Source of the DNA: Aquificaceae bacterium
GTDB lineage: Bacteria; Aquificota; Aquificia; Aquificales; Aquificaceae
Assembly (NCBI GenBank): GCA_027079305.1
Contig: JALWVU010000073.1
Coordinates: 124,001 to 188,000, forward strand
Reading direction: 5' to 3'
Length of the DNA stretch: 64,000 nt
The translations under genes and the position numbers were made by a program. The notes under the pieces were generated by a model. It made no database searches. It was not told the DNA's origin and worked only from the letters and a program-made list of their open reading frames with translations. Of the stretch, positions 8,174 to 10,619 are shown piece by piece. The number at the start of each line of letters is the position of its first letter. The first letter of the stretch is position 1.

Positions 8174-8181
8174 TTTACTTG

Positions 8182-8733
8182 ATGAAGGTAAAACTCCTTC
8201 CCCACTACACCGTTGAAGACTGGGAGAGATGGGAGGGTAGGTGGGAACTGATAGAGGGAATTCCCTACGCCATGTCTCCGATGCCCACACCGAAGCATCA
8301 GCTCATATCGACCAACATAGCGCGACTCCTTGCCCAGGAACTTGAGGAGTGCGAAAAGTGCATCTCCCTCATATCGATAGACTGGGTGATCTCCGAGGAC
8401 ACAGTTCTGGAGCCGGATAACCTTATAGTGTGTTCGGACGATCTTGAGAAAGACCTTTTATCTAAAAAAAGACTTGAGTTCCCTCCCGTAGTCGTCTTCG
8501 AAATCCTATCTCCCTCCACACGAGAGAAGGACAGGATAACCAAGTTCCAGATCTATGAGGAGCAGGGTGTCAAATACTACGTTATGGTGGATCCGGAGAG
8601 TGAGGAGGTGGAGGTATATCAGCTCAAAGATGGTAAGTATAAACTTGCTGGAAGGTTTCACAGGAGCGGAGAGTTCACCTTTGACCTGGGAACCTGCAGA
8701 GCTAAATTAAATTTCTCAAAGATCTGGAGGTGA
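8182..8733 (+). CDS. Uma2-family (DUF820) PD-(D/E)XK nuclease-like protein
   Basis: This 183-residue protein of the Uma2 family has a restriction-endonuclease-like fold but no settled biological role. The core is visible: an Asp in EPDNLIV, then [17 protein letters not shown] with the acidic residue and the downstream Lys, then the hallmark [17 protein letters not shown] 8182 was preferred to the TTG just before it. It is more diverged from the two downstream Uma2 copies than they are from each other. thiG follows after 4 bases, so the two are probably cotranscribed. Confidence 0.85.
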
Positions 8734-8737
8734 AGGA

Positions 8738-9541
8738 ATGGTAGACTACGAGAAACTCCTGGAGAACGATCCCTTCGAGATAGCAGGAAGGCGCTTCAGA
8801 TCAAGGCTTATAATAGGCTCCGGAAAGTTCAAGAGCTTTCAGGAAAACAAGGAAGTCCTCGAAGCCTCCGGAGCGGAAATAATAACGGTCGCTGTCAGGC
8901 GGGTGAACATAACCGATCCCACCAAGGAGAACCTACTGGACTACATCGATCCGAAGAAGTATCTGATACTCCCCAACACAGCGGGATGCTATACCGCGGA
9001 GGAAGCCATAAAGACCGCCATGCTCGCAAGGGAGGCGACGGGAATAAACTGGATAAAGCTCGAGGTGATAGGAGACCAAAAGACACTCCTGCCCGACATG
9101 GAACAGACCTACGAGGCGGCGAAGGTTCTTGTCAAAGAAGGTTTTATAGTCCTTCCTTACATATTTGACGATCCCGTCTACGCGAAGAAGTTCGAAGACA
9201 TAGGATGCGCGGCGGTCATGCCACTCGCAGCTCCGATAGGTTCAGGACTTGGTCTCCAGAACCCATATAACATAATGTTCATCAAGGAGGCGGTCTCCGT
9301 CCCGGTTATAGTGGACGCGGGGATAGGTAGCGCCGCGGACATACCTCCTGTCATGGAGCTGGGTGTAGACGCTATATTGACCAACACAGCCTTAGCGGAA
9401 GCCAAGGATCCCATAAAGATGGCGGTAGCCATGAAGCATGCGACCATAGCGGGAAGGCTCTCCTACCTCGCGGGAAGGATGCCCAAGAGGACCTACGCGG
9501 TTCCATCTTCGCCCCTCAGAGGAGTGCCCTTCAAGGGGTAG
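8738..9541 (+). CDS. thiG: Thiazole synthase ThiG
   Basis: ThiG makes the thiazole phosphate of thiamine from 1-deoxyxylulose 5-phosphate, dehydroglycine and ThiS thiocarboxylate. The 267-residue TIM barrel has the expected GSGKF near the N-terminus, a Schiff-base lysine in WIKLEVIGD (K107), the phosphate loops [10 protein letters not shown] and LTNTA, and a typical C-terminus. GGAGGTGAAGGA precedes the ATG. Usual partners (thiS, thiF, thiH or thiO) are absent. It sits between Uma2 genes instead, with no thiamine riboswitch visible. Confidence 0.97.
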
Positions 9542-9546
9542 AAGGT

Positions 9547-10089
9547 ATGGATCTGGCCCTTAGATACCTTCCCCGCTATACAGTTAAGGATTACGAGAAA
9601 TGGGAAGGTGACTGGGAGCTTATAGAGGGAGTTCCTTACGCCCTCGCTTCCCCTTCATTTGAGCACCAGAGGATAGTAGGCAGGATCTTTCGCTTTCTGG
9701 ACGAACAGCTTGAGGAGAAGTGTCCGGAGTGTAAGGTGGGGATAGACACGGACTACGTGATAGACGAACACACCGTGGTCAGACCCGACGTTTTTGTAGT
9801 CTGTGGTGAGGTAAAGGGAAAAATTCTCAATACTCCCAGAGTGATCTTCGAAGTCGTATCGGAAGGCACCGCGGAAAAAGATGAAAGACTGAAATTCGAA
9901 CTCTATGAAAGAGAAGGCGTGGAGTTCTACGTGATCGTTTTCCCTTCCCTTAGAAAGGCAAAGGCATACCGGCTCTTAAACGGGAAGTATGTAAAGCTTA
10001 TGGATATTATTACAAACAACCTTGAAATAGATTTGAAAGACTGTTTAATATCGGTCGATTTCAGAAGAATATGGGAGGGTGAAATATGA
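9547..10089 (+). CDS. Uma2-family nuclease-like protein, tandem copy A
   Basis: A 180-residue Uma2/DUF820 protein. It has the N-terminal YTVKDYEKWEGDWELIEG motif, a CPEC pair at mid-protein, VVRPDVFVV, FEVVSEGTAEKDERLKFELYEREGV and a C-terminal FRRIWE, all shared with copy B. The PD-(D/E)XK core appears intact. It starts 5 bases after thiG with AGAAGG as a weak ribosome binding site, and its stop overlaps the ATG of copy B (ATGA). The central third is almost identical to copy B at the DNA level although the flanks have diverged. Confidence 0.85.
   Translation: MDLALRYLPRYTVKDYEKWEGDWELIEGVPYALASPSFEHQRIVGRIFRFLDEQLEEKCPECKVGIDTDYVIDEHTVVRPDVFVVCGEVKGKILNTPRVIFEVVSEGTAEKDERLKFELYEREGVEFYVIVFPSLRKAKAYRLLNGKYVKLMDIITNNLEIDLKDCLISVDFRRIWEGEI
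9694..9937 (+). repeat. Direct repeat unit 1, within Uma2 copy A
   Basis: Pairs with 10233-10476 at a constant offset of 539 bases. The first 161 bases (9694-9854) are identical in the two copies. The remaining 83 bases differ at four positions (9855, 9858, 9906, 9921). Immediately outside, many third-codon positions differ. Confidence 0.9.
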
Positions 10090-10619
10090 ACATAGCTTTT
10101 AAGCATCCCCCCAACTACACCGTTAAGGATTACGAAAACTGGGAAGGTGACTGGGAACTGATAGAGGGCGTTCCCTACGCTCTGGCTTCACCTTCTTTCG
10201 AACATCAAAGAATAGTCTTGCGCATAGCAAGGTTTCTGGACGAACAGCTTGAGGAGAAGTGTCCGGAGTGTAAGGTGGGGATAGACACGGACTACGTGAT
10301 AGACGAACACACCGTGGTCAGACCCGACGTTTTTGTAGTCTGTGGTGAGGTAAAGGGAAAAATTCTCAATACTCCCAGAGTGATCTTCGAAGTTGTTTCG
10401 GAAGGCACCGCGGAAAAAGATGAAAGACTGAAATTCGAACTCTACGAAAGAGAAGGCGTAGAGTTCTACGTGATCGTACTTCCCTCCTTGAAAAAAGCCA
10501 AAGCTTACAAACTTACGGAAGGCAGGTATGTGAAGCTCAAGGACGTTATAAAGGACATACTGGAGCTTAACGTAGATGGTTGCAGTGTGTCTTTGGATTT
10601 CAGCAAGATATGGGAGTAA
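10086..10619 (+). CDS. Uma2-family nuclease-like protein, tandem copy B
   Basis: A 177-residue Uma2/DUF820 protein, the last of three in this block. It shares the central segment with copy A, from the LDEQLEEKCPECKVG region to the GVEFYVIV region, nearly base for base. The N-terminus (HPPNYTVKDYENWEGDW) and the C-terminus (VSLDFSKIWE) are similar but diverged. It is translationally coupled to copy A through a 4-base ATGA overlap. The cysteine pair CPEC is kept in both copies and absent as such in the first Uma2 gene, which has ECEKC at that place. Confidence 0.85.
   Translation: MNIAFKHPPNYTVKDYENWEGDWELIEGVPYALASPSFEHQRIVLRIARFLDEQLEEKCPECKVGIDTDYVIDEHTVVRPDVFVVCGEVKGKILNTPRVIFEVVSEGTAEKDERLKFELYEREGVEFYVIVLPSLKKAKAYKLTEGRYVKLKDVIKDILELNVDGCSVSLDFSKIWE
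10233..10476 (+). repeat. Direct repeat unit 2, within Uma2 copy B
   Basis: Partner of 9694-9937. It consists of 161 identical bases followed by 83 bases with four substitutions. The sharp boundaries suggest recent gene conversion rather than simple duplication age. Confidence 0.9.

Follow-up and report, generated by a model that had tools for sequence, protein, structure and literature searches.

A near-identical core in two old tandem Uma2 genes of an Aquificaceae bacterium points to partial gene conversion

Two tandem genes for putative nucleases of the Uma2 family, A and B, lie side by side in the genome of an Aquificaceae bacterium, and very probably they are old paralogs whose central ~245 bp has been overwritten by interlocus gene conversion. 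Both fall within the window, the whole 64,000-nucleotide stretch of DNA that was analysed, whose coordinates are used here. Compared in a register of +539 (A to B), the two genes are identical over 161 bases in their middle and differ at four sites (9855, 9858, 9906, and 9921), all silent, over the 84 bases that follow; the coding DNA on either side has diverged, as the original prediction held, with DNA identity of 71% over codons 1-49 and 59% over codons 132-177. The genes and the parts of the tract are as follows:

9547-10089, + strand: Uma2 gene A, open reading frame of 180 aa; PF05685 match, E 1e-22, 80.9 bits; Foldseek match to 6okh, TM 0.85
10086-10619, + strand: Uma2 gene B, open reading frame of 177 aa; PF05685 match, E 6.5e-22, 78.3 bits
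9694-9854, + strand: identical block, copy 1, 161 bases
10233-10393, + strand: identical block, copy 2, 161 bases
9855-9938, + strand: 3' part of the tract, copy 1, 84 bases with the four silent differences
10394-10477, + strand: 3' part of the tract, copy 2, 84 bases
9577-9678, + strand: codons 11-44, in the 5' flank of A; differs from B by 17 silent changes and 1 missense change; silent sites saturated
9940-10077, + strand: codons 132-177 of A, the 3' flank; protein 54% identical to that of B
9787-9789, + strand: codon of D81 (PD motif), invariant in a 29-sequence alignment, within the tract
9850-9852, + strand: codon of E102, invariant in the same alignment, within the tract
9892-9894, + strand: codon of K116, invariant in the same alignment, within the tract

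Both proteins score above the curated cut-off of PF05685 (Uma2), which is 27 bits, and the structure predicted for A (mean pLDDT 90.5) matches the solved Uma2/DUF820 structures 6okh, 9y1l, 3ot2, and 1wdj in Foldseek. Family score, fold, and the invariant D81/E102/K116 thus liken A and B to Uma2/DUF820/COG4636; with a predicted PD-(D/E)XK-type fold and an acidic/lysine motif, they are putative nucleases. The invariant residues of the alignment include P80 as well as D81, E102, and K116, all within the tract common to A and B, and by analogy with PD-(D/E)XK enzymes we take these four to be the putative active site. A and B would therefore now carry one and the same predicted active site. The source genome holds 17 Uma2 family matches. 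A, B, and a third Uma2 gene nearby, UmaC, are matched by the PADLOC PDC-S03 models (best E for A, 2.1e-25), PDC standing for phage defence candidate; an NCBIfam curated-name search of the three returned no match.

The tract is sharply bounded. At its 5' edge, position 9693 and the preceding codons differ and 161 bases then pass without any difference, bearing out the abrupt boundary at 9694/10233 and the exact 161-base block that had been described. The further stretch given as 83 bases with four differing sites does have four sites; its length is 84, and copy 2 ends one base further on, at 10477. The first difference 3' of the tract, at 9939, sits right at the edge and is again silent; it is the fifth silent difference in codons 50-131, which contain no missense difference (dS 0.10, dN 0), whereas dS is saturated in both flanks. 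Identity at silent codons follows the same outline, at 42% in codons 1-49, 98% in codons 50-103, 86% in codons 104-131, and 33% in codons 132-177. Among the 142 codons at which A and B encode the same (degenerate) amino acid, 100 are identical, 53 of them consecutively; a run of 53 was reached in none of 100,000 shuffles, the largest shuffled run being 39. The four differences are themselves clustered: none falls outside the final 84 of the 245 bases (P = 0.013 under a uniform distribution).

How old are the ends? Codons 11-44, with 17 silent differences to a single missense one, mark the 5' flank as old but constrained at the protein level; the 3' flank, with about 27 silent and 29 missense differences in codons 132-177, is old and less constrained. 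The expectation that the ends were left free to diverge thus fails for most of the 5' end; codons 2-10, codons 45-49, and the C-terminal part are the only places where the two proteins differ markedly. Codons 45-49 (9679-9693 in A, 10218-10232 in B), adjoining the 5' edge of the tract, show two missense changes and three recoded codons in a row. The thiG-like gene directly upstream of A provides a yardstick: between the source genome and its four closest congeners among those read, it has a silent identity of 55-58%, and in two more the value falls to 50% and 45%. Since these values exceed those of the A-B flanks, the split of A and B is at least about as old as the split of those species, and homogenisation of the core came much later. 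Silent-site identity confined to the centre, between saturated flanks, gives good support to the recent homogenisation that had been proposed.

Could the core instead have been held constant by selection on its nucleotide sequence, through protein constraint, RNA structure, or an overlapping signal? The presence of invariant D81, E102, and K116 within it speaks for such a reading, to which we give next to no chance. When A or B is compared with 15 relatives or paralogs over codons 50-103, silent identity is 23-62% and does not exceed that of the flanks; sliding windows give the same low values in the block. The pattern that was to count against conversion, with each copy keeping its own version of the block across species, was looked for and is not there. 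Codons 11-44 are equally conserved at the protein level and yet saturated at silent sites, and the RNA folding z-score of the tract, 0.16, is ordinary. Silent divergence between species and the ordinary folding score together rule out selection on protein or RNA structure. The tract shows two marks of interlocus gene conversion: identity with abrupt edges between otherwise diverged paralogs, and the extension of that identity to silent positions at which other species differ.

Nor does the core appear to have come from elsewhere. Near-identical tract DNA is found in none of the 64 family genomes apart from A and B; no third near-identical copy was found in the source genome, whose own paralogs match only in short 5' pieces. 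Tract DNA has a match of any kind in 8 of the 64 genomes, the source genome included, and the best non-self matches reach 76% identity over the full length and 79% over a contig-edge piece. With no near-identical DNA in these genomes and no plasmid match, import of the core was rejected as an explanation, though an unsampled donor may exist.

A different history would produce the same mosaic end state: a recent tandem duplication, after which recombination with diverged Uma2 genes gave one copy new 5' and 3' ends (or gave each copy a single new end), the core being an untouched remnant. Sources would be plentiful, given the 17 matches in the genome, and segment trees, in which A and B coincide in the core, do not make their ends sister-like: with 46-49 columns per flank and weak support, the placement of the 5' segments is not resolved, and the 3' segment of A goes with a G015 fragment and that of B loosely with G010. 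Nevertheless, this history needs one duplication and two replacements where conversion needs one or two events, and no end donor was found in the genome: the nearest 5' pieces of its own have 73-80% DNA identity, and three of its paralogs, compared over their C-terminal parts, have 24-43% protein identity. We consider it unlikely, if less so than an assembly artefact in which two merely similar blocks were collapsed into one consensus and written twice. The latter has a very small chance of being right: the assembly consists of 75 contigs, and short reads cope poorly with an exact repeat of 161 bases, but four separate differences were kept within 245 bases and A and B lie well inside a contig of 213,587 bases. 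Merging would, moreover, require copies far more alike than the 59-71% identical flanks, so that conversion would be implied anyway.

Under gene conversion, the preferred explanation, A and B would be long-diverged tandem paralogs, direct repeats 539 bp apart, and non-reciprocal homologous recombination would have copied the central ~245 bp from one gene to the other, inside the source lineage and presumably by the ordinary recombination machinery. Judging by the four differences, all in the last 84 bases, conversion probably took at least two steps: an older tract would include the 84-base 3' part with its four silent changes, and a younger one would cover the 161 unchanged bases. As to which gene was the donor, protein identities of the two flanks to G020 and G002 point in opposite directions, A being nearer at the 5' end (88 and 87%, vs 73 and 78% for B) and B at the 3' end (59 and 57%, vs 48 and 52% for A). 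Codons 1-10, codons 45-49, and some 46 residues at the C-terminus still set the two genes apart.

Two genes lie upstream of A and B:

8738-9541, + strand: thiG-like gene, open reading frame directly upstream of A, with matches at E<=1e-60 in 61 of the 64 family genomes
8179-8733, + strand: UmaC, third Uma2 gene, open reading frame with a Uma2 match, upstream of the thiG-like gene and outside the tract

The name thiG, for 8738-9541, is tentative and was given from the sequence itself. A starts 5 bases past the stop of the thiG-like gene and overlaps B by 4 nt (ATGA, 10086-10089); this spacing makes it likely that A and B are co-translated in one operon with the thiG-like gene. UmaC, with about 41-43% protein identity to A and B, stands directly upstream of thiG in the source genome and in 7 of the 13 same-genus genomes for which the surroundings of thiG were retrieved, a stable Uma2-thiG association. 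Three further same-genus genomes have no thiG match and are outside the 13. Downstream of thiG, a Uma2 gene occurs in none of the 13 (the downstream sequence being 342 bases in G016 and 795 in G020), which argues that the placement of A and B is lineage-specific; the next gene after thiG, in 8 of 11 of these genomes, is an open reading frame that, judging by its first residues, is FAD-dependent-oxidoreductase-like.

Are A and B an isolated accident? In the family, Uma2 genes commonly form compact arrays of two to five members, most of which overlap or abut (L071-L077 and L132-L147, from G035, G036, G045, G046, G037, G024, G025, G027, G028, and G054). The 123 distinct Uma2 genes from the fetched family loci gave 2,359 candidate pairs with at least 25 three-residue words in common, 661 of which passed the filters (minima of 110 aligned codons, 55% identity in protein, and 60 silent codons, and silent identity of at most 0.985); each was then searched for a stretch in which silent identity is raised, with 200 shuffles per pair for comparison. 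Silent identity is clustered at p<=0.05 in 23 of 35 adjacent pairs and 48 of 582 between-genome pairs, p-values being uncorrected, pairs within an array non-independent, 11 of the 35 from one genome, and the adjacent pairs taken from loci picked because the match list had neighbours, not as a random sample. Non-adjacent pairs of one genome lie in between, at 11 of 44 (8 of 26 for pairs in the same array and 3 of 18 for the others); the labels of the genomes were given by hand, and that of L058 (to G063) is a guess that touches the non-adjacent classes only. The excess persists when silent identity is matched, with 4/11 adjacent vs 18/372 between-genome pairs at 0.45-0.60, 12/14 vs 11/51 at 0.60-0.75, and 7/9 vs 10/26 at 0.75-0.99; the single adjacent pair below 0.45 is not significant. 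Local variation in silent constraint also yields scan hits, as in 8% of the between-genome pairs. The A/B pair has the top score of the 35 (29.9; the next is 28.4), and at least one clustered-identity pair is present in 19 of 25 arrays. These counts suggest that neighbouring Uma2 genes of the family undergo recurrent conversion, A and B being one case among several, although tandem genes of any kind may usually fare in this way, the survey having covered the Uma2 family.

In other tandem pairs the raised-identity segments lie at the 5' end, in the middle, or at the 3' end; a shared core with free ends is thus not a general rule, and the proposal that the ends decide specificity gets no help from these positions. 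A bolder view would make the tandem Uma2 genes of the family a mosaic-generating system, in which repeated short conversions keep the active core and reassort the ends, diversifying a defence-related nuclease repertoire like other clustered variable immune genes; we regard this as improbable. A broken Uma2 gene in the source genome (L083:1139-1429, G000:C25), in two fragments of 96 and 66 open codons in different frames, suggests that family members also decay there.

Concerted evolution and gene conversion of bacterial paralogs are well known, from nuoL in Aquificales to tuf in groups that include Aquificae (PMC6053082). Like those paralogs, A and B appear homogenised by recombination at silent and missense sites, in the same phylum. 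That account deals with 26 genes, most of them for subunits of stable complexes, and with long spans of time, whereas A and B are a two-gene tandem of putative nucleases with a partial tract of 245 bp; the word nuclease does not occur in the main text of that account. The Uma2 family is reported as expanded in Thermus and hot-spring cyanobacteria (PMC1274311, PMC9403480); the available text of these papers describes expansion and not conversion tracts such as that of A and B. For a Uma2 gene that lies in the PFOR gene cluster of Aquifex aeolicus, proteomics found little or no product (PMC10052474). In function, the closest comparison is with Rpn (YhgA-like) proteins, PD-(D/E)XK nucleases that form tandem arrays, have variable C-termini, and act in toxin-antitoxin phage defence (PMC10327210); DUF820 and YhgA-like families have been linked through neighbourhood and fusion (PMC1913061). 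A hallmark of Rpn is an internally translated antitoxin that begins at a conserved internal start (PMC10327210). Across 17 aligned genes, the seven codons viewed (126-131 and 152) include no such conserved start: GTG at codon 129 is confined to A, B, and one paralog of the source genome, and ATG at codon 152 to A. An account of conversion among Uma2 genes was not found in the openly accessible literature searched. The process is already known; its recurrence in tandem Uma2 genes is the new part here.

The A/B pair is a clear case, found in nature, of partial conversion between bacterial tandem genes, with both edges visible. With clusters in roughly two of every three adjacent Uma2 pairs read in the family, single-gene trees of this much-expanded, uncharacterised family would mix histories; and, if the mosaics are selected, they would provide a handle on the role of Uma2 arrays.
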